From Candidatus Gaiellasilicea maunaloa (lineage in GTDB: Bacteria; Actinomycetota; Thermoleophilia; Gaiellales; Gaiellaceae), in the NCBI GenBank assembly GCA_024330215.1, contig JANDLU010000027.1:1-38934 (forward strand): a stretch of 38,934 nucleotides of DNA, read 5' to 3'. The notes beneath the pieces are model-generated. The model did no database searches, was not told the DNA's origin, and worked only from the letters and a program-made list of their open reading frames with translations. Both the position numbers and the translations under genes were made by a program. The first letter of the stretch is position 1; each line of letters starts with the position of its first letter. Shown one piece after another: positions 117 to 38,891 of this stretch.

Positions 117-965
117 CTACAAGCCAAGATTTGCCAGGCGGAAACCCAGCGCTTCCTGGCTGACGTCATACCGCCGCGCGAGCCGAGCTAGTGACGTCGT
201 TCTTGCATCCTTTTTGACCATCGCTTCCGGCATCAAGAGTTCAGCGGCGAACTGGTTCGCTGCCCGTTCGTGCTCCCAGTCGTAGCCAGGAACCTCGCCT
301 TCCAAGCCACCGGCGTAGTCGATGAAATGGTGGTCGGCGTGGTGGAGGACGAAGTGCCCGAGTTCGTGCGCGACCGAGAACCGCTGGCGCACGGGAGCTT
401 GATGGCTGTTCACGCCGATGAAGGCGTTCTTGCCGTGCCGCAGGATCAGTGCCGATAGGGCGTTCGGGAACGGGCGCGCGAAGACGGCGACACCGAGCTC
501 CCGTGCGACTACCTGGACATCGACCGGTGGCCGGAGCTTGTTGAGCTTCGTCAGAATCTCCTTTGCCGCAGCCTCGGGTTTTGTCGCCTTAACCGTCACC
601 CGCGCCGGCGGAAGAGGAGCATCTTCAATCTCGTCGATGAACGCGTTGATGGCCGCGGAGAAGTCGGGGAGCTGCAGGTCCGCCACCTCCGCCCGCAGCG
701 TGACGCCGACCGGGCCTCTCTGCTCACGTGCCGGCGCGATGAAGTAGTCGACCTCTTCGCCGAGCTCGCGACTGATCGCGACGAGCTCATCGACGCGCAT
801 CGGCCTTGTCCCTGCTTCAAGGTTCGACACCGCCGCCTGTGAAAGGCCAATCGCCGCTGCCAAATCGACCTGTGAGACACCGCGTGCCTCACGGGCGCGG
901 CGCACACGCCCGCCGATCTGACTCGCCGGCTCGTTAGCCAACAGTCCCGACCGCTTCGATGGCAT
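117..965 (-). CDS. XRE-family HTH regulator fused to ImmA/IrrE-type zinc metallopeptidase
   Basis: A 282-residue protein with two domains. Residues about 17-75 form an XRE/Cro helix-turn-helix (VSQVDLAAAIGLSQAAVSNLE). Residues about 130-280 form an ImmA/IrrE peptidase with the zinc motif H200-E-L-G-H204 and a downstream ERAANQFAAELLMP segment, where E233 is the likely third ligand. Known members of the ImmA/IrrE family cleave or inactivate repressors in mobile elements and stress responses; a fused HTH suggests a self-contained sensor-regulator. The ATG start at 965 lies 71 bases beyond the stop of the E1-like gene on the same strand, so it is probably the last gene of the ubiquitin-like operon. 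It may control that operon or an element carrying it, but that is inference. All catalytic residues are present. Confidence 0.9.
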   Translation of the reverse strand: MPSKRSGLLANEPASQIGGRVRRAREARGVSQVDLAAAIGLSQAAVSNLEAGTRPMRVDELVAISRELGEEVDYFIAPAREQRGPVGVTLRAEVADLQLPDFSAAINAFIDEIEDAPLPPARVTVKATKPEAAAKEILTKLNKLRPPVDVQVVARELGVAVFARPFPNALSALILRHGKNAFIGVNSHQAPVRQRFSVAHELGHFVLHHADHHFIDYAGGLEGEVPGYDWEHERAANQFAAELLMPEAMVKKDARTTSLARLARRYDVSQEALGFRLANLGL

Positions 966-1036: not shown

Positions 1037-2401
1037 CTACAGAGCGACATAGCCAAGATTATCCGCCCCCTCCCACTGCGCCGCCAGCGCAATCCGCGGG
1101 CGCGAGAGGTCGCGCAGTGACAAGTCGAGGATCGTATGACGCCGCTCGTCGTCAGCGTAATAGCGGAGCAACTCGGCGACCGCGACGCTCGAGGCGAAGG
1201 CACCGACGAACGCTGCGTCTATGGCACGACCGGCGACCAAGATCGCTCCGCAGCGATCGCCGAGACGCCGCTCGAGCTCCTGGTACGCCGGCATTTCAAG
1301 GACCGTCTCGTCGAACGTTCCCCGCCGCCCGCCCCACTGTTCCTCGGGTGTCCTTTCGGCGGGGAACGAGTGCAGCCGCGCGTCGAGATAGTCGCCCGAT
1401 CCAGCCCCCAGACCAACGTCGACGATCAGCGACCATCCGGGGTGGCCGAGGAGTGCGCGTGTTTGTGGGTTGTCAACACCCACGAGTGCGATGCGTGGGT
1501 CGTCATCGCCCGCCCGCTCGTGTTCATCGAAGCGCCGCTCATAAAGACGAGTTCGAAACCCGAGCGTCTCGATGGCCGCCGCGACGACGCGCGTCTTCTT
1601 CAGCCCGATGTCGGCTGATGTCGCGAGCAGCGATGTCGCAAGATTCGCGTCGGTCAGCACGTCAACGTCTTGCAGCACGAGCTCGACCTCCGTCGGGTCT
1701 TGGTACGGCAGCCATCCAAGACTCCAGAGGTATGCCTGTCCGAGGTGGCCGAGGCCGAGAAGGTGCAGCTTATTGGGAGCCAGTAACCCGGATGTCTCCG
1801 GTCCGAACCCTGAGGGATTGATCCACTGAATGTCCGGTCGCCACAGAGACAGCCCCTGATCGCGACGTCCGGCTCGAACGTTGCCGCGAATGGCTTGGAA
1901 TGCCTCGGCGACACCGGCAGCCCCGGCGAGAACGCCCGCCGGCGTGAACTCAGGGCGCCGCTGCAAATTCACACCAGGCCGAGCGATAACTCCACCGGCC
2001 CAGCCGGCGTGTGTGACCGTCATACAGAGACCGCGCGTTGGCCACGTCTGTGGCGACGTCCCGAGAACGAGCGTTGGGTAGTCGTCGGACAGCTTCGTAA
2101 CCTGCTCGCAGCCATACGCCACGATCGCCTGGCTCGCTGATCTGCCTCTAACCCACCCGGACTCGAGCTGCTGATCCTGCGTGAGTCTGACGTGGACGCC
2201 GCCCTGGAACGCCCGCGGCGCCGAGTTCAGGATCGTCGCAAACGCGGCTTCGGCGGTCGGGCCTTGGAGTCCATCGCCCCGAACGTCGACCTGCAGGACG
2301 TAACGCGAGAACAGTTCGGCCGCCTCTTCGATTGTCGTTGCATCGCCCGTGTCGAGCGCGAGCTTTTGAATTCGGTCGAGTCGATCGACGTCCGGGATCA
2401 C
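1037..2401 (-). CDS. bilD: E1-like (ThiF/UBA fold) adenylyltransferase, BilD-like
   Basis: A 454-residue protein. The first 200 residues or so form an unrecognised N-terminal region. From about residue 211 there is a ThiF/E1 Rossmann fold: LHLLGLGHLG (G216-x-G218-x-x-G221), a strand ending in the acidic LQDVDVLT, and a later VGVDNPQTR segment. E1 proteins adenylate the C-terminal glycine of a ubiquitin-like protein and usually pass it to a cysteine. C384 in GDRCGAILVAGRAIDAAFVG is a candidate thioester cysteine; C98 and C126 lie in the N-terminal part. The GTG start at 2401 overlaps the stop of the JAB gene by four bases (GTGA), so translation is probably coupled. The neighbours Ubl, E2 and JAB make the E1 role firm. 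The name bilD rests on gene order and domain content, not on alignment. Confidence 0.85.
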   Translation of the reverse strand: MIPDVDRLDRIQKLALDTGDATTIEEAAELFSRYVLQVDVRGDGLQGPTAEAAFATILNSAPRAFQGGVHVRLTQDQQLESGWVRGRSASQAIVAYGCEQVTKLSDDYPTLVLGTSPQTWPTRGLCMTVTHAGWAGGVIARPGVNLQRRPEFTPAGVLAGAAGVAEAFQAIRGNVRAGRRDQGLSLWRPDIQWINPSGFGPETSGLLAPNKLHLLGLGHLGQAYLWSLGWLPYQDPTEVELVLQDVDVLTDANLATSLLATSADIGLKKTRVVAAAIETLGFRTRLYERRFDEHERAGDDDPRIALVGVDNPQTRALLGHPGWSLIVDVGLGAGSGDYLDARLHSFPAERTPEEQWGGRRGTFDETVLEMPAYQELERRLGDRCGAILVAGRAIDAAFVGAFASSVAVAELLRYYADDERRHTILDLSLRDLSRPRIALAAQWEGADNLGYVAL

Positions 2402-2931
2402 CGTGCCCTCCGCTCGATCTTCAGCCGAGCCGCCGCCTCAGTATCGAGCGCCGACTGCCACTGGGTCTCCCCGAGATATTCGTGGACACCGACTTCGTGA
2501 GCGCCGACGTGGCGTTGCGCGAAATCAGGAACGATCAACGCGATGTGACCGCTCTGCGCGAGCATCGGGTGCTCGCGATCAGTCGAGCTCTGAGCGACCC
2601 ACGGCCCAGGATGGGTGTGGACATCGGCCACAACGGCAAGGCCGCGCGCTTCACACTCGTCCCAAAGTCGTCCGTAAGCGAAACCGCCGAAGGAGATGTT
2701 GCCGGTAAGGCTCGCAGGGTCGAGATCGTCGTAGTAGACGACGTCGGCGACCCGCCGCGGCGCACCGTTCACGGGAGCCACGCCTAGCAGGAACGCCCCG
2801 CTCTCGCGTACCCCTTTACCCCGGATCGCGAGCTCGGTGAGAAGCTCATCCCAGAGCGCCGCTTCCACAACCAGGAGCGCGGGCGTCCGCCGCCGGAAGC
2901 GTTCAAGCAGCCTGTTGACGAATCCCGGCAT
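2398..2931 (-). CDS. bilC: JAB/MPN (JAMM) isopeptidase, BilC-like
   Basis: A 177-residue protein that is essentially one MPN/JAB domain. The complete JAMM zinc site is visible: E43 in RESGAF, then H105-T-H107-P followed by S115-x-x-D118 (VHTHPGPWVAQSSTD). Enzymes of this family remove ubiquitin or ubiquitin-like proteins from targets, or trim their precursors. Here the gene follows the E2-like gene with a 29-base overlap (2903-2931) and itself overlaps the E1-like gene by four bases, so all of these are translated from one message. Because the partner ubiquitin-like protein already ends in glycine, this enzyme may act mainly as a deconjugase. No transmembrane segment or extra domain is seen. 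The family is certain; the bilC name is by synteny. Confidence 0.9.
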   Translation of the reverse strand: MPGFVNRLLERFRRRTPALLVVEAALWDELLTELAIRGKGVRESGAFLLGVAPVNGAPRRVADVVYYDDLDPASLTGNISFGGFAYGRLWDECEARGLAVVADVHTHPGPWVAQSSTDREHPMLAQSGHIALIVPDFAQRHVGAHEVGVHEYLGETQWQSALDTEAAARLKIERRAR

Positions 2932-3376
2932 ATCCAGGCTCCCGAAGAACGTCGCGGACGATTCGGAGGTAGTGCGTAATGTCGCGGGTCGGATTCCACG
3001 CGTGGGCAGGGTGCTGCGTTAGCCATCCTTCGTGTCCCGCTAGCGCAAGCCGATCGCACGGAATGTAAAGGGCGTTGCGGTTCCAGCCCAAATTGAAGAC
3101 CTGGCTCACCCGGTCTCCGATCGGCCACATTGCATCCTGTAGTGGCGCGTCAGCTGCCGCGTTCCAGGGCTGCGCCGTCGGCAGCTGCTGTGGGTAGCCG
3201 GAGAGCTCGAATCGCAACGCGACCTCGCCGGGCGCGCTGGCCCGCGGCGGGGCCGTAACTGCGATCACTGCGTGAGGCCAAGCGATCGAAATCAACCGCC
3301 AGTCGCCCCGATCCACGCCCGTCTGAAAGGGCCCCGTGGCGACGTGCCGCCGGAAGCTGCGTTCGTCGGGAAGCAT
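2903..3376 (-). CDS. bilB: E2-like conjugating protein, BilB-like
   Basis: A 157-residue protein with features of the divergent bacterial E2/UBC fold. A strand-rich N-terminal half leads to FELSGYPQQLP, followed by the motif LYIPCDRLALAGHEGW, in which C107 is the probable catalytic cysteine, and a C-terminal helix region with HPAHAWNPTRDITHYL. H115, W118 and W127 look like conserved framework residues. An E2 accepts the ubiquitin-like protein from the E1 as a thioester and transfers it to a target. The ATG follows the stop of the ubiquitin-like gene directly (TAG then ATG, no gap), and the 3' end overlaps the JAB gene by 29 bases. Recognition rests on the cysteine motif and the operon. A sequence-only search might call it hypothetical. 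Confidence 0.8.
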   Translation of the reverse strand: MLPDERSFRRHVATGPFQTGVDRGDWRLISIAWPHAVIAVTAPPRASAPGEVALRFELSGYPQQLPTAQPWNAAADAPLQDAMWPIGDRVSQVFNLGWNRNALYIPCDRLALAGHEGWLTQHPAHAWNPTRDITHYLRIVRDVLREPGYAGIRQQAA

Positions 3377-3844
3377 CTATCCCTGGAACCGATCCTGCAT
3401 AACGAGGTCAAAGGCAGCGGCGCAATCGTCGTTCGCGAACGAGCCGACGTGGCGGGAGAGGTCGGGCTGCTCGGTCGCCCCTTGGACCTGCAGCGTGTGT
3501 TGCGCCTGATCGCTATCGCCGAGCCCGAACCCCTGGCCCTTGGAAACAGCACGAGCGTAGACGGATTCGAGCGTCGCCGCGGACGGCACCTCGTACGACC
3601 TCGTCTCCTGGTTGTAACGCGCGGAGACGGTTACCTTCTTGCAGGTCCCTACGTGGACGTTTGAGCGCTCGCCGACTCCGGCATCCGCCAATGACGCCTC
3701 CGGCGCAAGTGCTTCCTCTTGACCCTCGAGGAACACGTGCGCGTCGGGGTAGCCCGCCAGCCCGGCGAAGTCCCTGACGCTCGTCGACGGGTCCGGATCC
3801 TGGATCTCTACATCTGTACCGCGGGTATGAACAAAGACTTCCAT
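3377..3844 (-). CDS. bilA: Tandem beta-grasp ubiquitin-like modifier, BilA-like
   Basis: A 155-residue protein. The open frame extends upstream to 4018, but the ATG at 3844 is chosen because GGAGGAACC stands just before it and because the upstream 58 residues would overlap the preceding gene. Residues 1-67 form one beta-grasp-like unit (MEVFVHTRG start, a ubiquitin-like LADAGVGERSNVHV turn near the end). Residues 68-155 form a second (KKVTVSARYN start). The protein ends VMQDRFQG with one terminal glycine, the feature needed for activation by an E1. Two fused ubiquitin-like domains recall ISG15 and the BilA proteins of Bil anti-phage systems. E2, JAB and E1 genes follow without gaps. The fold assignment is from pattern and context, and no lysine-rich or membrane region is present. 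Confidence 0.8.
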   Translation of the reverse strand: MEVFVHTRGTDVEIQDPDPSTSVRDFAGLAGYPDAHVFLEGQEEALAPEASLADAGVGERSNVHVGTCKKVTVSARYNQETRSYEVPSAATLESVYARAVSKGQGFGLGDSDQAQHTLQVQGATEQPDLSRHVGSFANDDCAAAFDLVMQDRFQG

Positions 3845-3939: not shown

Positions 3940-4695
3940 CTACTGGAGTGAGTGGTGGAGCAGCGCTGACCACTCGCCCTCGCGTAGGTCGCGCGAGGGG
4001 AAGGTCGAGGAAGGCCACTCCCAGTCGCTGAACGCTGCGCCCGGTGCAAATGCCGCGAACAGCGTGCCGACCCAGTCAGGCGGGAACGTTGTCCCATCGA
4101 CCGCAACCCACAGCGCCTCGAGATCGTCGGCCGCTTCGACGGTGACCGCAACGCCGTGCTCGCCGCCGATGCGGCCATCGAACGCAACACCGGGGGCGTT
4201 TCGGGCGTCGGTGAGGAGCTGCTGGGCGTCCCCAGAGGCAAGGTCGGCGAAGCGCTCGTCACGTTCGCGGAATAGGTCGTCGTAGTCGTCTGCGGCAGGG
4301 ACGAGCTCGCCAGCGGCGTCGAGTGCGCGGAAGTGGTTGAACGCGTCATCCTCTTCGCCCGACCGATGCCAGCCGTAGGCACACAACCAGATGACTCGCT
4401 GAGTGACCTGATGCCACGTCGCGCCACGGTGGTTGTTGCCGTACGAGACCACCCACATCTCGTGGCCCGAAGTCAACGGGGTCACTTGGCGCGTTCCGGT
4501 CGGGCCTTGCCTCCGCTGGTTAACGAGCGCCGTCACGATCTCGACCGAGCCGTATAGGTCCTCAAGCTCGAAGTTCTCGACCAAGCGACGACCGAGGTCG
4601 TCGCTAAGGCATCGCCGAGTCACTCGCAAGTCGTACTGCGCCGCGATGAAAGAGCCGCGATGAAAGCGCTCCCGGACTGGCGGCATCGCGGACAC
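3940..4695 (-). CDS. Unrecognised 251-residue protein upstream of the ubiquitin-like operon
   Basis: The first codon is GTG at 4695; an ATG four codons in (4686) is an equal candidate, and neither has a clear ribosome site. I do not recognise a family. The N-terminal 150 residues contain paired histidine/tryptophan elements (HEMWVVSYGNNHRGATWHQVTQ, then VIWLCAYGWHRSGEEDDAFNHF) and an acidic DDYDDLFRERDERFADL stretch. The C-terminal 80 residues are rich in W, D and F and end LLHHSLQ. There is no signal peptide or membrane segment. It lies 30 bases after a ribbon-helix-helix-like gene and 95 bases before the ubiquitin-like gene, all on the same strand. Two readings are open: an accessory factor or target of the conjugation system, or the toxin partner of the small upstream protein. 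Confidence 0.7.
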   Translation of the reverse strand: MSAMPPVRERFHRGSFIAAQYDLRVTRRCLSDDLGRRLVENFELEDLYGSVEIVTALVNQRRQGPTGTRQVTPLTSGHEMWVVSYGNNHRGATWHQVTQRVIWLCAYGWHRSGEEDDAFNHFRALDAAGELVPAADDYDDLFRERDERFADLASGDAQQLLTDARNAPGVAFDGRIGGEHGVAVTVEAADDLEALWVAVDGTTFPPDWVGTLFAAFAPGAAFSDWEWPSSTFPSRDLREGEWSALLHHSLQ

Positions 4696-4725
4696 GCGGC
4701 GAGCGTATCCGCGGGTACGGACGAT

Positions 4726-4986
4726 TTACGCGGACTGGGCTGCGGCTGCGGCGGCTTCTGCGCGCGAACGCCGGTTGCGTCCTACGTGCGTCGCCAACCC
4801 GGCGGTGTCGCCGGCTCGGATGTGCGCGGCTGCTTGCTCGAAGTCGGCCGCGATCTCCTCGCGATGCTGGTCCACGAAATCGTGCCAAGCCTGCGTCAGC
4901 ATCTCGCCCGGCGCGCGGCCCTTGAGGGCGCCCACCCGGCGGACGTCTTCGAGAAGATCTTCTGGAATCCGGACTGTCGTCGACAT
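4726..4986 (-). CDS. Small ribbon-helix-helix-like DNA-binding protein (possible antitoxin)
   Basis: An 86-residue protein beginning MSTTVRIPEDLLEDVRRVGALKGR, the usual beta strand plus helix of ribbon-helix-helix (Arc/CopG-type) proteins, with a second helix PGEMLTQAWHDFVDQH. The C-terminal 35 residues are a basic-to-alanine-rich tail (NRRSRAEAAAAAAQSA), which in antitoxins is often the toxin-binding part. The ATG at 4986 is preceded by a strong GAAGGAGG ribosome site. It is the first gene of the minus-strand operon, and an inverted repeat lies in front of it. It probably represses its own promoter. Whether it is an antitoxin for the following 251-residue protein or simply an operon regulator cannot be decided from sequence. 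Confidence 0.75.
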   Translation of the reverse strand: MSTTVRIPEDLLEDVRRVGALKGRAPGEMLTQAWHDFVDQHREEIAADFEQAAAHIRAGDTAGLATHVGRNRRSRAEAAAAAAQSA

Positions 4987-5367: not shown

Positions 5368-5409
5368 AGCCGACGCGCGGACTCGAACCGCGGACCCCTT
5401 CATTACGAG
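5368..5409 (-). other. 3' half of tRNA-Thr(CGU): probable integration (att) scar
   Basis: On the minus strand the sequence fits tRNA positions 32-73 exactly in spacing: anticodon loop CTCGTAA (5403-5409, anticodon CGT), stem half TGAAG (5398-5402), five-base variable loop (5393-5397), T stem CGCGG / loop TTCGAGT / stem CCGCG (5376-5392), acceptor half CGTCGGC (5369-5375) and discriminator T at 5368. Upstream of the anticodon loop there is no D arm and no GCCGACG acceptor partner, and the pair next to the loop is a C-U mismatch. The gene is therefore broken at the anticodon loop, which is a common crossover point of tyrosine integrases. By the usual polarity the inserted DNA lies on the high-coordinate side; a tandem insertion could put elements on both sides. 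Confidence 0.8.
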
Positions 5410-5801: not shown

Positions 5802-6737
5802 TCAGGTCGTCCACGTCGTCCCCGTCTTGCCCGCGTTGACGTGCTCGTTGTCGAGCTCCGGGACCGGCTCGGTGTAGTAGGGCATCCGCACTTGACGCGG
5901 CGTCCAACTACCGTCGTCGATGCACCTACGGACGTGCGTGGCGATCTCGTGCATCGTCGCGAACCAGACGTCTTCCTTCGCCTGCATGTACTCGATCAGC
6001 TCGCCGATCGCCTCAAGTCGTGCCAGCCGGCCGGAGACGAACGGATGCCAGGTGGTCGTGAAGAAGCCGCCGTGCTTCCAGCGCGCGTCGAACTCTTCCT
6101 TGAAGACCTGCAAAGCCTGTGACGGCGGCTTCGGCGGGATCAGGTACGCGAGATCCGGGACGTGCGCGTAGTGGGGCCAGTCGTCGAGCGTGATGTCGAT
6201 CGGCAACTCGACGAGTTCGCCCGAATCGCAGGTGACGAGGTACGGCTGGCTGTCGGCCATCAGCGTTGTGTCGTAGAGGTATCCCTCTTGCGCCAGCAAA
6301 TCGGCCGAGTGAATCGTGAAACCTGCCCACGGTCCGCGCCAGCCCGTCGGCTTCGAGCCGGTGAACTCCTCGATCACGGCGGCTGCGCGCTGCAGCCAGT
6401 AGAGCTCACTTTCAGGCGTCTGATCCATCGGGTTCTCATGCAGGTAGCCGTGCGCCGCGATCTCGTGTCCGCTCTCCACGATCGGTGCCACAGCCTGCGG
6501 ATAGCGCTCGATGCACCATGCGGGCACGAAAAACGACTGCTTGATGCCGTAGGTGTCGAAATGCTTGACGATGCGCGGTATTGCGATCTCGTCGTACCGG
6601 AGCCAGGAGATCAACGCCTGCATCGTGTGGGCGCGGTCGGGGTGCATCGGGTGCAGAAACGCGTCGGTGTCCATGTCGAAGTTGATCGAGACCGCGCAGC
6701 GGGCGCCGCTCGGCCAGGGAACCGGGTCAAGAAGCAT
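5802..6737 (-). CDS. Polysaccharide deacetylase / PuuE-type allantoinase-like hydrolase
   Basis: A 311-residue NodB-fold protein. Metal and catalytic signatures are INFDMDTDAF (D21, D23) and H96-x3-H100 in AAHGYLHEN, with a RGPWAG strand and a C-terminal TTTWHPF element. Proteins of this branch include peptidoglycan deacetylases and cofactor-independent allantoinases, both acting on amide bonds. The absence of a signal peptide and the company of amidohydrolase and amino-acid-type transport genes favour a cytoplasmic ureide or cyclic amide substrate. The ATG at 6737 overlaps the preceding LivG gene by 11 bases. The frame closes at 5802, yet another frame continues as a plausible tail (VDDLKPRLMPQGHRDWS, stop at 5740), so a one-base shift near 5820 may have cut about 20 residues. 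A related but truncated copy starts at 38649. Confidence 0.8.
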   Translation of the reverse strand: MLLDPVPWPSGARCAVSINFDMDTDAFLHPMHPDRAHTMQALISWLRYDEIAIPRIVKHFDTYGIKQSFFVPAWCIERYPQAVAPIVESGHEIAAHGYLHENPMDQTPESELYWLQRAAAVIEEFTGSKPTGWRGPWAGFTIHSADLLAQEGYLYDTTLMADSQPYLVTCDSGELVELPIDITLDDWPHYAHVPDLAYLIPPKPPSQALQVFKEEFDARWKHGGFFTTTWHPFVSGRLARLEAIGELIEYMQAKEDVWFATMHEIATHVRRCIDDGSWTPRQVRMPYYTEPVPELDNEHVNAGKTGTTWTT

Positions 6738-7503: not shown

Positions 7504-9323
7504 GCTCTCACTCCCAGGTAGGCCTCGGCGACGTCGGTAGAGGCGAGGAGCTCCTCGCGGGTGCCGGAGGTGACGATGCGCCCGGTGCGGAGCACGTAGG
7601 TGCGGTCCGCGAGCTCGACGGTGGCGGCGGCATTCTGCTCGACGAGGAGGATCGTCGTCCCAGAGTCGCGGAGCTGGGCGAGGGTGTCGAAGACGACGTC
7701 GACCATCAGTGGCGCGAGGCCGAGCGACGGCTCGTCGAGCAGGAGCAGGCGCGGCCGCGAGAGAAGCGCCCGGGCGATCGCCAGCTGCTGCTGCTCCCCC
7801 CCCGAGAGCTTCGCGGCCGAGGAGCGGTAGTAGCGGCGGAGCACCGGGAAGCGCTCGAGCACGTCCTCGACCGTCTCGTCGATCAGCCCCCGATCGCCGA
7901 TAGCGGTCGTGCCGAGCTGGAGGTTCTCGGCGACGGAGAGCGTGCCGAAGATGTGCCTGCCCTCCGGCACGAGCGCGACGCCGCGCCGCACGATGCGCTC
8001 GGGTGTATCGCCGACGAGCGAGCGCCCCTCGAGCTCGACCCGCCCCGACGCTGGCGCGAGGAAGCCCGCGATCGTTGCCAGTGTCGTCGACTTGCCGGCG
8101 CCGTTGGCGCCGATCAGCCCGACCAGCTCGCTCTCCTCGACCTCGAGCGAGATCCCCTGCACTGCGGCGACGTTGCCGTAGTGGACGGTCAGGTTCTCGA
8201 CCGCGAGCAGCGGGGTGTCCGCACGCGAGCCGGTCTCCGTCGCCGCGTCGCGACGCGCGAGCTGTGGGAGCCGGCGAATGGCGCGCTCCGCCATCGTTCG
8301 CGGCCGGAGGCTGCGCCAGCGGAGGAGCCGGCGGATTCGCGTCGGCGCGATCTCCTCCCCGTCGGTGAGCCCTCGTGGCCGGAGCAGCAGCACGGCGAGC
8401 ATCGCCAGTGCGATCGCAACCTGCTGCAGGCCGCGTGTCTCGGGAAAGACGAAGAGCCCGAAGTCCCAGCCGGCCTCGATCCGGAGCAGTCCCTCGGAGA
8501 GCAGCGAGATGAAGATCGTGCCGACCACCGCGCCGGAGAGACTGAGCACGCCCCCAACTACGAGCATCGCCACCGTCGCGAACGTCGTCGCGACGAAGAA
8601 TGCCGCCGGGTTGAACGTGCCGTAGAACTGAGCGAAAAGGCCGCCGCCGATCCCGGTGATAAACGCGCTGAGCACGTAGGCCGCGGTGCGCTCGCGCGTG
8701 ATCCCGATGCCGATCGCCCGCGCGGCCGCTTCGTCCTCGCGCGAGCCGCGTAGGCGCAGCGAGATGCTCGTCTGCTGAAACCACCACGCGATTAGGATCA
8801 CCGCGATCGTCCAGATCAGCGCCGTGTAGGGCGTCGTGCTCGCGGGGACGCCGCCGAGCCCGGTCGAGCCGCCGGTCACCTCGTCGAGGTTCGACGCGAC
8901 GATGTAGACGATGTTCAGGAACGCGAAGGTGCCGAGCGACGCGACGAGGCCGGATAGGCGCATCAGCGGGACCGCGATGACCAGTGCGACGAGGGCCGCG
9001 GCGCCGCCGGCGACGAGCGTTGCGACGATGCTAGGGACCTCGACGTCCGGCATGGTGGGGTAGAGCAGGTTCTTCGTCGTTTCGGGGATTCGCAGCGTGG
9101 CGGCGGTGTACGCGCCGATCGCCATGAAGCCGATCTGGCCGAACGAGAAGACACCCGAGTTGCCGACGAAGACGTAGAGCCCGACGACGAGGATCAGGTT
9201 GATCAGCATCGTCACGACCGTGGTCTGCAGCACGGCCGAGCCGAGTGCCCCTAACATCGTCACAACCGTGACGAGCGCGATCAGGACGACCGGTGTCGAG
9301 TGCCGCTTCAGCGCGCCGCGCAC
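7500..9323 (-). CDS. Fused Liv permease and ATPase (LivM-LivF)
   Basis: A 607-residue fusion starting with GTG at 9323, directly after the LivH stop. Residues 1 to about 325 are a LivM-type permease: many hydrophobic spans, GNSGVFSFGQIGFMAIGAY near the front, the cytoplasmic loop SREDEAAARAIGIGITRERTAAY, and the closing LRPRGL. A basic, low-complexity linker (residues about 325-370, with several RR pairs) leads to a LivF-type ATPase: Walker A GANGAGKST, VPEGRHIF, signature LSGGEQQQLAIARALL, Walker B LLLLDEPSLGLAP, switch VEQNAAATVEL. The VPEGRHIF element marks LivF rather than LivG, and LivG is encoded next. LivM fused to LivG is common, whereas fusion to LivF is less usual. All catalytic motifs are intact. 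Confidence 0.9.
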   Translation of the reverse strand: MRGALKRHSTPVVLIALVTVVTMLGALGSAVLQTTVVTMLINLILVVGLYVFVGNSGVFSFGQIGFMAIGAYTAATLRIPETTKNLLYPTMPDVEVPSIVATLVAGGAAALVALVIAVPLMRLSGLVASLGTFAFLNIVYIVASNLDEVTGGSTGLGGVPASTTPYTALIWTIAVILIAWWFQQTSISLRLRGSREDEAAARAIGIGITRERTAAYVLSAFITGIGGGLFAQFYGTFNPAAFFVATTFATVAMLVVGGVLSLSGAVVGTIFISLLSEGLLRIEAGWDFGLFVFPETRGLQQVAIALAMLAVLLLRPRGLTDGEEIAPTRIRRLLRWRSLRPRTMAERAIRRLPQLARRDAATETGSRADTPLLAVENLTVHYGNVAAVQGISLEVEESELVGLIGANGAGKSTTLATIAGFLAPASGRVELEGRSLVGDTPERIVRRGVALVPEGRHIFGTLSVAENLQLGTTAIGDRGLIDETVEDVLERFPVLRRYYRSSAAKLSGGEQQQLAIARALLSRPRLLLLDEPSLGLAPLMVDVVFDTLAQLRDSGTTILLVEQNAAATVELADRTYVLRTGRIVTSGTREELLASTDVAEAYLGVRA

Positions 9324-10208
9324 TTAGACGCGCTCCACGACCGCGCGAGACGAGATCAGGCCCTGGGGGCGCAGGATCAGCACCAAGACGACGATCGCGA
9401 ACACGAATGCGTCGCGGTACGGCCGGTAGCCGAGCGGGAGCGTCGCTTGCAGCGCCACCGTCAGCGCCCCGAGGACGTACCCGCCGAGCACGGCGCCTGT
9501 GAGGCTGCCGAGACCGCCGACGATCGTCGCGATGAAGGCGGCGAGCACCACCGTAAGTCCCATCGTCGGCGAAACAACGCCGGTCTGCGCGACGAGGATT
9601 AGTGCCGCGACGGCCGCGAGCAACCCACTGAGCGCGAATGCCGTCGCGATCACGGTGTTGGCTCGCACGCCGAGCGCGCGCGCCATGCGGAAGTCCTCCG
9701 CAGCGGCGCGCATCTGGACGCCGAGACGGGTGCGGCCGAGGAACACCACGAGCGCCGCGAGCAACCCCGCGGTCACGGCCACTGTGAAGACGTCGAGCTT
9801 CCGGATCGAGAGCTCACCCACGGTGAAGGACTCGTTCAAACTGCTCAGGATCCCTACGCTCTTCTGCAAGGCCCCGATCAGTACGATGGCGAGGCTCTGC
9901 AGTAGGAAGCTGACGGCGAACGACGTCACGAGCAGCGTGTCGGCGCGCGCTCCCCGCACCGGCCGGAACGCCACCCGTTCCATCACGAGCGCGAACACGA
10001 TCACGATCACGATCATCAGTGTCACGCGCACGATCGTCGAGGGCGCCGACACGAAGACGAGCACGTAGCCGCCCACCATGACCAGCTCGCCGTGCGCGAA
10101 GTTGATCAGGTTCATGATCCCGAAGATCAACCCGATACCGAGCGCGAACAACGCATAGAGGCTGCCGAGCGCCGCGCCGTCGATGACGTACTGAAGGACT
10201 TCTGTCAC
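9324..10208 (-). CDS. livH: Branched-chain amino acid-type ABC permease (LivH)
   Basis: A 294-residue membrane protein with about eight hydrophobic spans. It carries the LivH hallmark LIFGIMNLINFAHGELVMVGGY near the N-terminus, the cytoplasmic coupling region RTRLGVQMRAAAEDFRMARALGVRANTV, and a C-terminal FVFAIVVLVLILRPQGL. The GTG start at 10208 has AGAGAGGT about 5 bases upstream, and the stop abuts the start of the LivM-LivF fusion, so the pair is translated together. It is separated from the binding-protein gene by 58 bases that hold a stem-loop. It forms the translocation pore with the LivM half of the next protein. Confidence 0.92.
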   Translation of the reverse strand: MTEVLQYVIDGAALGSLYALFALGIGLIFGIMNLINFAHGELVMVGGYVLVFVSAPSTIVRVTLMIVIVIVFALVMERVAFRPVRGARADTLLVTSFAVSFLLQSLAIVLIGALQKSVGILSSLNESFTVGELSIRKLDVFTVAVTAGLLAALVVFLGRTRLGVQMRAAAEDFRMARALGVRANTVIATAFALSGLLAAVAALILVAQTGVVSPTMGLTVVLAAFIATIVGGLGSLTGAVLGGYVLGALTVALQATLPLGYRPYRDAFVFAIVVLVLILRPQGLISSRAVVERV

Positions 10209-10229
10209 TCGACCTCTCTCTGGAGAGTG

Positions 10230-10257
10230 TGGGGGCGGCCTGGGCTGACCGCCCCCA
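10230..10257 (-). terminator. Stem-loop between binding-protein and permease genes
   Basis: TGGGGGCGG (10230-10238) pairs perfectly with CCGCCCCCA (10249-10257) around a 10-base loop. No T-run follows on the minus strand, so it is more likely an RNA-stabilising or partial-termination hairpin that raises binding-protein levels over the permease than a full terminator. Confidence 0.55.
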
Positions 10258-10266
10258 TTGGGTTCG

Positions 10267-11517
10267 CTAGGAGCCGAACAGCGGCAGCTGCTTCTTCGCG
10301 GCGCGGACGTCGACCACGCGGTGCTTGCCGTTATTCACCTCGATGATCCGCTCCTCACGGGCGGTGTCGATGTGCTGCTCCGGCGTGAAGGTGAGCGCGA
10401 GGCCGCCAATGTCCTCCTTGTCCCAGGTGTCCATCTCGGCGACCATCGCCGCGCCGTCCGTGGAGTTGGCCTGCTCCATCGCCGTCTTGAAGGTGTACAC
10501 CGCGATGTAGCCGAGGACGGTGAAGTACGACTGCGGCTGCTTGTCCTTCGCGGTGACTTTTTCCACAAACTCGTTGATCCGGTCGCTTGGGTCGTCGCCC
10601 CACACGCTCGCGGACGCCGTGATGTAGAAGCCGCTCAGGTTCGGAATCGAGTCCTCGAACCAGTACGTTCCGTCCATCGCCCCGTTGCTGATGATCGCCG
10701 AGTTCACGTCGGCGTCACGGAGCTGCTTGACTGCGACGGCACCGCCCGGCGGGAAAGAGCAGAGCATGATTAGGTCAGGCTCCTGCCCGAGCGACTTGAT
10801 GCGCGTGACCTGCGCCGCAACCGATGTGTCGTTGTTCTTGAACGTGTCCTCGCCGAGGATCTCCCCGCCGAGCTCCGTCCAGACCTGCTTGAACGACGAG
10901 CACTGATCCTTGTCGTAGTCGGTGACGTCGTCGAGAAGGAGGTACGCGGTCTTGAAGCCCTTCTTCTCGATGCCCCACTCCGCCGCGACCGTCGAGTCGG
11001 TCTGCGCCGCGATGCCGAGCGTGTAGGCCATGTTGCCGATGCCCTGCACGCCGAACTTCGCCGAGCCTGCGCCTGGAGCGATCACGACCTTGCCGGCCTT
11101 CTGCGCCTCGCGGGCGGCGCCGCCGCCGAAGTTGTAGTCCAGCGTAACGATCATCGCGTCGGCGCCCTGCTCAAGCACCTCGAGCCCCGCGCGCGCACCC
11201 TGATTGATGTCCGACTTCGTATCGGCCTTCACCAGCTTCACTTGCCGGCCGAGGATGCCGCCGCTTGCATTGATCTCTTCGATTGCGATCTCGGTGCCTG
11301 CCACCGCCGGCAGGTCGAAGGCCGAGAGCCCGCCCGTCAGGGCGACCGCCGAGCCGATGACGATCGGGTCTTCCGTTGCCGCCTCTGTGCTCTGGCTCGT
11401 GTCGCCGGCATCGTCACCGCTGTCGTCGCCGCCGCAGGCGGCTGAGCCGAGCATCAACGCGAGTGCGGCCATGGCGAGCAGCAGCCACCTTGCATGCAAC
11501 CTCGATCCGCGAATCAT
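10267..11517 (-). CDS. Liv-type substrate-binding lipoprotein (LivK-like)
   Basis: A 416-residue type I periplasmic-binding-fold protein. The ATG at 11517 is chosen for its GGAGGAG ribosome site and because a lipoprotein signal follows at once: a basic start, a hydrophobic run (WLLLAMAALALMLGSAAC) and C28 as the lipid anchor, followed by an acidic GGDDSGDDAGD linker. The mature part has the family pattern: PIVIGSAVALTGGLSAFD, ageneric AIEEINASGGILGRQVKLV, DTKSDINQGARAGLEVLEQGADAMI and a final HRVVDV region. It would capture the solute outside the membrane for the LivH/LivM/LivF/LivG transporter encoded downstream. The ligand-contact residues do not allow me to name the solute; the flanking amidohydrolases suggest an amide, ureide or amino acid derivative. 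Confidence 0.9.
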   Translation of the reverse strand: MIRGSRLHARWLLLAMAALALMLGSAACGGDDSGDDAGDTSQSTEAATEDPIVIGSAVALTGGLSAFDLPAVAGTEIAIEEINASGGILGRQVKLVKADTKSDINQGARAGLEVLEQGADAMIVTLDYNFGGGAAREAQKAGKVVIAPGAGSAKFGVQGIGNMAYTLGIAAQTDSTVAAEWGIEKKGFKTAYLLLDDVTDYDKDQCSSFKQVWTELGGEILGEDTFKNNDTSVAAQVTRIKSLGQEPDLIMLCSFPPGGAVAVKQLRDADVNSAIISNGAMDGTYWFEDSIPNLSGFYITASASVWGDDPSDRINEFVEKVTAKDKQPQSYFTVLGYIAVYTFKTAMEQANSTDGAAMVAEMDTWDKEDIGGLALTFTPEQHIDTAREERIIEVNNGKHRVVDVRAAKKQLPLFGS

Positions 11518-11539
11518 TCGGTGCTCCTCCTGGTGGGGG

Positions 11540-12565
11540 TTAGTGGCCCGGCGACGCAAGGTCGCTCTGACCAATGGACACGATGCTGTGCAACATGTCG
11601 ACGAACGCCCGCTGGGCACGCAGCGCCACACCGTCGTCGCCGAGCGTGGGCCGGCCCGAACTGCCGTCGAACGCGCCGGCATTGACGACGTCCCGGAGCA
11701 TCCGTTCAAGGTCGTCCGCGTCGATCAGCGGTCCGATATCGCCCTTCAGGAAGCAGACCATCGCAGCGACGCCGTAGCCGCCCCAGTTCGAGATCGCGGC
11801 GACGAGGAACTTGTCGGTCGCGACGCTCGCCGCCGATCCAGCGCCGCAGGGGCAAAGGCACTTCTCCCCTGCGGGCATGATCTCCCGCACCGCGTCCTCG
11901 ACCACTCCGAAGCCGACCTCGTTCCCGCCGTCGCCGATGCCCGCGGTGAGGATTCCGCGCTCACGGGCGCCGTCGAAGAGGTATCGCGGGTTCGCATGCA
12001 CGGCCGTGTAGTCGAGCCCGGTCGCCCCGTGGATGACGCCGCTGCGGTTCGGAGCGAGCTTCTCGATCCCGAACACGAGCACGGGCGCGATGCGATCGAG
12101 GAGCTCAGCCGCCTGGGACTTGCATGCCTCGTCGTCCTCGGGCATGGGGATGAAGGTCACCTGGTGGTCGACGTCCGCTTCGCCTTCGCGCCTGAAGTTG
12201 AGTCCGGCTGCCCAACAGGCGGCTCGCACCGGCTCGAAGGCGCGCTCTTCGGTCAGGATGTAGGACACTGCGCCTAGTGCGAAATGGAGTGACCGAGCCA
12301 AGGCTGCGGCCCCAAGCAACCCGTCCACCTCGGCCTTCGGCAGCACCGGCGGACCGCCGGCCCCGGTCAGAATGAGGACGGGATCGCCGGGCTTGATGCG
12401 ATCGACGAGCGCCTGCGCCACGTCGAGGGTAAGAGGCGTTCCACCTGCATGCTCCCGGGCTGCGTCATACAGCCGGTGGATGACCCCCCGGGGGAGATTG
12501 CCCTTGCCCGGGCGCATCTCGACCGTGCAGAGACGGTCGATGTATTCGGCGATGACGGCGGGCAT
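11540..12565 (-). CDS. D-glutamate cyclase-like protein (DUF4392 family)
   Basis: A 341-residue protein with the hallmark GILTAGIGDGGNEVGFG, followed by CLCPCGAGSAASVATDKFLVAAISNWGGYG. This is the DUF4392 pattern found in the C-terminal half of vertebrate mitochondrial D-glutamate cyclase, which converts D-glutamate to 5-oxo-D-proline. The N-terminal half carries LILTGAGGPP and ALARSLHFALGA segments also seen in that family. It starts with ATG directly after the stop of the nitrilase-family gene and is followed 22 bases later by the binding-protein gene. With the oxoprolinase/hydantoinase genes 6 kb away, lactam or 5-oxoproline turnover is an attractive but unproven role. The bacterial members are mostly uncharacterised, so the reaction is inference. 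Confidence 0.75.
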   Translation of the reverse strand: MPAVIAEYIDRLCTVEMRPGKGNLPRGVIHRLYDAAREHAGGTPLTLDVAQALVDRIKPGDPVLILTGAGGPPVLPKAEVDGLLGAAALARSLHFALGAVSYILTEERAFEPVRAACWAAGLNFRREGEADVDHQVTFIPMPEDDEACKSQAAELLDRIAPVLVFGIEKLAPNRSGVIHGATGLDYTAVHANPRYLFDGARERGILTAGIGDGGNEVGFGVVEDAVREIMPAGEKCLCPCGAGSAASVATDKFLVAAISNWGGYGVAAMVCFLKGDIGPLIDADDLERMLRDVVNAGAFDGSSGRPTLGDDGVALRAQRAFVDMLHSIVSIGQSDLASPGH

Positions 12566-13504
12566 CTAGGAGAGGGGGGCGTAGTCGGGAACGGCCGACT
12601 CCGCACCTGCGGGGGTTGCTGGCCGGCTGCCCGGCTCTCCCGGGACGGGCACCCTGGCCACCTCCTGATAGAGGCTCGGGTTGCGGTTCCAGAATGGATG
12701 CAATGCGCCGCGGGCGGCGAAGATCAGGCTGCGGTCGAGCATGACGGTCTGGATTGATTCCTCGCCGCGCGGGGCTTCGGCGAGCACCTCGCCTGAAGGG
12801 CTGTAGAGGCGGCTGCCGCCGAAGAGTTCGAACTCCTTTTGCTTGCCGACGACCGACACGTGCAGATACGGGATGCAGTTCTCGAGCGAGCGGGCGTAGA
12901 GCATGTGGCCCCATCCGTCCTCGAAGCCGCAAACCGCCGCTGACGAGTTGATGATTAGCTCGCAGCCCTTGAGCGCGTAGGTGCGTGCGACCTCTGGGAA
13001 CCAGACGTCGTAGCAGATCTCGACGCCGATCCGACCGTAGCGCGTGTCAAAGACGGGCAACTCATTGCCGGGGCTCCACCAGAGCTTCTCAGCCGCCAAC
13101 TTCGCGCCGCCGTCGACGATGAACGCGGCGACGTGCGTCTTTGAGTAGGTTCCCATCAGGCCCTCCGGCCCAATGAAGAGAACGGAATTGTAGGCGTCGC
13201 CGGGGAACGCACCTTTGTGCGTGGTGGCTCCCATCAGGATGTAGAGGTCGCGTTCGCGCGCGGCGCGGACGAGCGGTTGGACGAACGGATCGTCCTCGCT
13301 CTCGGCGACGGCGTAAAGCGGTGTGTACTCACGCGACTCGTAACCGTTCAGGTAGATCTCGCCGAAGACGAGCACCCTGGCACCTTGCTCGTCGGCCTGC
13401 GCGATCGCGTCGAGCGCTCTCGCGAGGTTGTCCGGCCGGGGGTCATAACCCTCCTTCGCGATATTGGATTCCAACTGACAGATGCCGATCGGGATCTCGT
13501 TCAC
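12566..13504 (-). CDS. Nitrilase-superfamily carbon-nitrogen hydrolase (N-carbamoylase-like)
   Basis: A 312-residue amidohydrolase. The frame continues to 13582, but GTG at 13504 is preferred: GAGGAG precedes it, the promoter lies just upstream, and family homology begins at IPIGICQLESN. The catalytic triad is visible as E49 (VFGEIYLNG), K122 (YSKTHVA) and C164 (VEICYDVWFPE). NSSAAV and HVSVVGKQ segments complete the fold. The family includes N-carbamoyl-amino-acid amidohydrolases, beta-ureidopropionase and other amidases working in the cytoplasm. It is the first gene of a seven-gene operon ending at the deacetylase-like gene, and its stop abuts the next start. Substrate is not deducible beyond an amide, nitrile or carbamoyl group. 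Confidence 0.85.
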   Translation of the reverse strand: MNEIPIGICQLESNIAKEGYDPRPDNLARALDAIAQADEQGARVLVFGEIYLNGYESREYTPLYAVAESEDDPFVQPLVRAARERDLYILMGATTHKGAFPGDAYNSVLFIGPEGLMGTYSKTHVAAFIVDGGAKLAAEKLWWSPGNELPVFDTRYGRIGVEICYDVWFPEVARTYALKGCELIINSSAAVCGFEDGWGHMLYARSLENCIPYLHVSVVGKQKEFELFGGSRLYSPSGEVLAEAPRGEESIQTVMLDRSLIFAARGALHPFWNRNPSLYQEVARVPVPGEPGSRPATPAGAESAVPDYAPLS

Positions 13505-38652: not shown

Positions 38653-38891
38653 CGGATCAGATCCGACCGTTGCTGGACGACCCGGTTCCTTGGCCCGGCG
38701 GAGCGCGGTGTGCCGTGTCGATCAGCTTCGACATGGACTCCGACGCGTGCCTCCACCCCATGTATCCGAACCGCGCACACCTATCAGGCCTCATCTCATG
38801 GCTCCGCTACGACGAAATCGCGGTTCCGCGGATCGTCCGGCTGTTTGAGGACTACGAGATCAAGCAGACGTTCTTAGTAGTGCTTTGTTAG
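38649..38891 (+). pseudogene. Truncated second polysaccharide deacetylase / PuuE-like gene
   Basis: GTG 38649 overlaps the amidase stop. The 80-residue product matches the N-terminus of the deacetylase-like protein at 5802-6737 almost throughout: DDPVPWPGGARCAVSISFDMDSDA against LLDPVPWPSGARCAVSINFDMDTDA, and SWLRYDEIAVPRIVRLFEDYEIKQTF against the equivalent stretch. Similarity stops abruptly near 38876: where the first copy reads FFVPAWC, this one reads FLVVLC and stops at 38891. The AHGxxxH metal site and the rest of the domain (about 230 residues) are missing. The gene is therefore either genuinely cut by a rearrangement or joined wrongly in the assembly. Nothing is recognised in the last 43 bases. 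Confidence 0.75.

Follow-up and report, generated by a model that had tools for sequence, protein, structure and literature searches.

Evidence for a complete BilABCD operon with a linked HTH-M78 gene in the high-GC bacterium Candidatus Gaiellasilicea maunaloa

Do four tightly packed genes of Candidatus Gaiellasilicea maunaloa form a bacterial ubiquitin-like conjugation system of the Bil type, and would such a system serve in defence against phage? The whole stretch of DNA that was analysed (38,934 nucleotides, hereafter the window) carries on its minus strand, between positions 1037 and 3844, four genes encoding BilA, BilB, BilC and BilD (Table 1). The extent and strand of this operon, and the overlapping or abutting of its stops and starts, agreed with what had been proposed in a first-pass annotation made from the letters of the window. 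The stop of bilA abuts the start of bilB, while the overlaps between bilB and bilC and between bilC and bilD measure 29 nt and 4 nt, respectively. Good ribosome-binding sites were found ahead of bilA and bilD, and because the site at the ATG of bilA (position 3844) is strong, a longer frame opening with GTG at position 4018 is unlikely to mark the start of this gene, which we would place at the ATG. No operator-like inverted repeat or palindrome was found before bilA, and a promoter scan gave results at chance level. Profile searches, which the first-pass annotation had suggested as a check, produced near full-length PADLOC matches, far beyond chance, for all four proteins. In Pfam the four proteins matched DUF7665 (BilB) and, below threshold, JAB and ThiF, with nothing more, so that a general library would miss the operon.

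Table 1. Features of the Bil locus and its surroundings (positions in the window)
Feature	Position	Strand	Description	Match or observation
bilA	3377-3844	-	Tandem ubiquitin-like modifier, 155 aa	PADLOC BilA 2.5e-32
bilB	2903-3376	-	E2-like conjugating enzyme, 157 aa	PADLOC BilB 2.2e-57; Pfam DUF7665 6e-48
bilC	2398-2931	-	JAMM/Prok-JAB isopeptidase, 177 aa	PADLOC BilC 7.1e-60
bilD	1037-2401	-	E1-like adenylyltransferase, 454 aa, GTG start	PADLOC BilD 2e-137
HTH-M78 gene	117-965	-	HTH-ImmA/IrrE (M78) metallopeptidase, HELGH, CapH/CapP-like	Pfam M78 1e-23, HTH_3 1e-13; PADLOC capP 1e-31, capH 2e-9
251-aa protein gene	3940-4695	-	Unknown family, second gene of RHH-like pair	Homologues beside Bil in L026, without Bil in L106/G305
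86-aa protein gene	4726-4986	-	RHH-like, antitoxin-like, first gene of pair	Similar small ORF before the 251-aa homologue in L026 and L106, by eye
tRNA-Thr(CGT) 3' end	5368-5407	-	Attachment-site scar, 40 nt	40/40 identical to intact tRNA on contig C2

Structure prediction, another check put forward at that stage, bore out the double beta-grasp modifier and the E2-like protein that had been read from the sequence. AlphaFold2 models were made for BilA and BilB using alignments of relatives as input (pLDDT 95 and 96, respectively). The BilA model shows two beta-grasp domains, and its best Foldseek matches were linear di-ubiquitin (3e-10), FAT10 and ISG15; domain 1 matched ubiquitin, and domain 2 could be aligned with BilA of 8tyx (Z 10.3, rmsd 3.5 over 82 residues). 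The chain ends in ...DRFQG, with an invariant terminal glycine (Gly155) that is kept in 87 of 87 relatives and closes the chain in 69 of them, window included. BilB has an E2 fold in the model, with the Bil E2 8tz0_C from a Bil E1-E2-Ubl complex as best structure match (Z 11.7, rmsd 3.2, 129 residues), followed by eukaryotic E2s, and the solved Bil structures are distant in sequence (about 12-16% identity for the E2). The catalytic Cys107 is present in the motif YIPCDR, as annotated, and an E2 cysteine occurs in 76 of 88 relatives. In BilC the zinc site of a JAMM isopeptidase is full (E43, H105, H107, S115 and D118), its His, Ser and Asp residues being invariant in all 91 relatives (91/91), and the BilC profile matched 8tyx DUB(BilC) in the PDB (1e-4). 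The E1-like identity of BilD was likewise upheld by profile matches to 8tyz E1(BilD) (8e-7), ThiF and UBA3, and by an ATP site made up of GLGHLG (G216/G218/G221), D245, K269 and D310; C384, conserved in 92/92 relatives, is presumed to be the thioester cysteine.

The BilABCD identity first proposed is supported by the domain set, the gene order, the active sites and the profile matches, and the locus is in all likelihood a complete BilABCD defence operon belonging to the known Bil family. It has in common with the known systems (PADLOC models; 8tyx, 8tyz and 8tz0) the gene order, the folds, the catalytic residues and a tandem-Ubl modifier with a terminal Gly, and it differs from them in having an HTH-M78 gene after bilD, in lacking a three-gene module found in most relatives, and in being far in sequence from the solved members. 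The E1, E2 and JAMM logic is common to the CBASS, Bub and Bil families, and Bub and Bil are related (PMC13373217), both of which would suit a reading of the four genes as the Cap2/Cap3 accessory genes of type II CBASS or as a multiubiquitin (Bub) operon. Such an assignment is extremely unlikely in view of the strong matches of all four genes to Bil models, of E1 and E2 being separate genes, of Pfam reporting neither a multiubiquitin nor a DUF6527 domain in any of the proteins, and of the outcome of a search of the whole genome with the SMODS domain, in which no CD-NTase was found. The last of these argues against type II CBASS, as had been concluded earlier; with Cap2/Cap3 the window shares the E1/E2/JAMM chemistry, but it has a modifier of its own. 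Bub operons (multiubiquitin, E1, DUF6527) resemble the window in being a bacterial ubiquitin-like pathway, and one of them (L124) carries the Bil-type three-gene module, but their modifier and peptidase are unlike those of the window.

Profiles grown from the window proteins recovered BilA, BilB, BilC and BilD in 87, 88, 92 and 93 loci, respectively. The four genes, which had been taken as a unit, were found together in the order A-B-C-D in all readable relatives (about 90 loci), a few 'ACBD' strings being artefacts of ORF starts. Relatives of BilD were found on 35 plasmids and in bacterial genomes, where 80 loci spanning at least six phyla were kept, and none was found in the phage collection searched; no relative found shares more than about 45% identity with the window E1. 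Among 101 genomes around the host, BilD was present in one, namely the host's own. Searches bearing on the phylum of the host detected neither WhiB nor a Pup ligase. The distribution is thus sporadic, and because the spread over plasmids and many phyla goes with presence in 1/101 near genomes, the system is probably moving horizontally.

The description of the operon as four genes holds in that Bil is complete, but it overlooked a linked HTH-M78 gene, which follows bilD on the same strand and encodes a single fused chain of 282 aa. The same position downstream of bilD is occupied in the sister locus L026, and in seven other surveyed loci HTH plus M78 lie divergently upstream of Bil. When M78 matches bearing HExxH were counted, 74 lay no more than 1.5 kb from Bil (258 kb searched), against one at a greater distance (869 kb searched), the 74 not being independent events, since the surveyed loci are interrelated and the profile was iterated from the window's own protein. 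Judging from this linkage, the HTH-M78 gene very probably belongs to the Bil locus. Its product resembles CapH + CapP in combining an HTH repressor domain with an M78 (ImmA/IrrE) protease bearing HExxH beside an immune operon, and differs in that the two are fused and their gene follows the operon in the same orientation; because they form one chain and not two separate proteins, it is called CapH/CapP-like here. Of 544 Bub operons, 219 have CapW or CapH+CapP beside them, regulators that are responsive to DNA damage, and CapH+CapP regulate other immune operons (PMC13373217). By analogy, the HTH-M78 protein may have a similar role in Bil, and its synteny points to a probable ssDNA-responsive regulator of the operon, although fused HTH-M78 proteins occur in unrelated contexts too, which counts against this role.

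In about 65 relatives a three-gene module lies upstream of bilA (for example L009:1513-6417). Directly upstream of bilA, 64 surveyed loci encode a protein of some 1,120 aa, which bears HExxH in 63 of them and reads M78-UvrD-PD-(D/E)XK according to Pfam (two examples, in one of which the M78 match was just under the cut-off). Ahead of this helicase-nuclease come a sigma-r4-like gene, found in 67 loci, and another of unknown family, found in 66 loci (221 aa in L009). The same module stands ahead of the multiubiquitin/ThiF/DUF6527 operon of L124 (a Rhizobium plasmid; positions 8120-12955), and in L123 (a Pseudomonas plasmid) it lies beside an IS element, without an annotated Ubl operon. It is absent from the 38.9 kb of the window, in which the side upstream of bilA is complete; the left flank ends with the contig, 116 bp past the HTH-M78 gene. 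Across the survey, Bil was almost always accompanied by an M78 protease.

The operon had also been placed beside an integration scar. The scar is real; by its polarity, however, Bil lies outside the marked element and is not bracketed by it. The 3' end of tRNA-Thr(CGT) occurs in five copies in the genome, one being the intact tRNA and one having a single mismatch, with further copies on contigs C2, C14 and C152. For the pair on C2, the DNA separating the intact gene from the fragment is on the 5' side of the latter. Applying this polarity to the window scar puts the element side above position 5408 and Bil outside, an argument by convention since no integrase was identified. The flank of the C152 scar is related to that of the window (183 bp, 88%), and on its element side are genes for QatA, QatC and type I R-M together with one that is pAgo-like. 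The tRNA-Thr scars are defence-associated in this genome, and the window scar is no proof that Bil arrived with an element.

Membership of the Bil family and the defence genes at the equivalent tRNA-Thr scar together suggest an anti-phage role for the operon. Characterised Bil systems are described as protecting against phage (Millman, Hor and Chambers, as cited in PMC13373217 and PMC11354881), and Bil tags proteins with a ubiquitin-like modifier much as human cells use ISG15. In the window, BilD (E1) would adenylate the C-terminal Gly of BilA and take BilA onto C384, from which BilB (E2) would accept it on C107 and transfer it to a target; by analogy with the characterised systems, this target would be a phage structural protein and virion assembly would be spoiled. 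BilC (JAMM) would strip BilA from wrong targets and, since BilA already ends on Gly, should not be required for its maturation. The HTH-M78 protein would probably restrain the operon until its protease is switched on, either by DNA damage or by replicating phage. The linkage of DNA-damage-type M78 regulators to almost all Bil loci, together with the helicase-nuclease upstream in most Bil relatives, would also fit a conjugation system acting mainly in the host response to stress (DNA damage) and not in phage defence, and the border between immune and stress functions is blurred, an anti-phage role not being established for Bub operons (PMC13373217). We consider a main role in the stress response unlikely given the phage protection ascribed to characterised Bil systems, the sporadic and often plasmid-borne spread of Bil, and the other defence genes adjoining the equivalent scar in the same genome, and defence against phage is the preferred reading.

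A quick tree of BilD placed the window as sister to L026 (an Actinomycetes MAG; SH-aLRT 93) within a nine-row clade (99) that is mainly actinomycetotal, with one member from Chloroflexota. The catalytic Cys of the E2 is missing in six of the eight clade members with readable BilB (L048 has the tree label C by default, its contig ending before bilB). Where the window has YIPCDR, the Cys-less proteins have YAPFDR, YAPWDR, YAAWDR or YAAYDR, and two of the six are without any Cys; all six retain the E1 Cys, the JAMM site and the Gly of BilA, while the window and L026 retain the E2 cysteine. Altogether, the catalytic Cys was replaced by W, F, L, Y or A in the BilB of 12 loci (L006, L007, L008, L015, L022, L033, L034, L076, L088, L090, L094 and L122), mostly in the actinobacterial clade, and all 12 keep the E1 Cys, the JAMM site and the BilA Gly. 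L122, an actinobacterial locus on an Amnibacterium plasmid from outside the survey, has YIAADR in BilB, an intact E1 CG, a complete JAMM site and a divergent HTH-M78 gene. A Cys-to-Ser change in the E2 of L028, a low-coverage near-copy of L030, was left out as a real loss. Because two further Cys-less sets, L006/L076 and the long-branch pair L007/L008, fall in other parts of the tree, the E2 cysteine has probably been lost more than once.

With the E2 cysteine gone in most clade members and the locus situated at a contig end, the operon might be thought to be decayed or silent. This is very unlikely for the window, in which none of the four bil frames is interrupted, the catalytic residues are complete, the coding GC shows a normal pattern over codon positions and the ribosome-binding sites are good. 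A tentative reading, possible though doubtful, is that the Actinomycetota/Chloroflexota Bil clade is self-controlled through HTH-M78, with an E2-like protein that would mostly be a Cys-less adaptor and an E1, its own Cys always kept, that would pass on the modifier with no thioester on E2. The window and L026 would then be members still having the E2 Cys, and an M78 protease, joined either to a helicase-nuclease or to HTH, would be a regular part of Bil. The window contributes an intact Bil operon of high-GC origin, set in a clade that is mostly without the E2 cysteine, and its comparison with the Cys-less neighbours offers a test of whether bacterial ubiquitin-like conjugation can dispense with the E2 thioester.

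The genes for the 251-aa and 86-aa proteins upstream of bilA were considered as a fifth Bil component and rejected, since a homologue occurs in a genome without a Bil match and the pair recurs at a single other Bil locus of the survey; the two genes are probably an independent neighbour of Bil. Toxin-antitoxin-like pairs of this kind (RHH-like plus about 250 aa) were seen with and without Bil, at window positions 3940-4986, L026:4398-5138 and L106:1146-2211. At the opposite end of the locus, positions 5-55 of the window are identical (51 bp) to the contig ends G000:C64:1-51 and G000:C152:19358-19408. This overlap was rejected as a contig link or shared element end because the three continuations are unrelated (one is cysteine desulfurase-like by eye), and it is probably an assembly, library or technical end artefact. 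Finally, related sequences that are polysaccharide-deacetylase-like by eye (60-73% protein identity) were found on the element side of the window scar (5802-6737), at the far end of the window (38673-38882) and, interrupted by stop codons, close to the scar of C152 (G000:C152:44-773).
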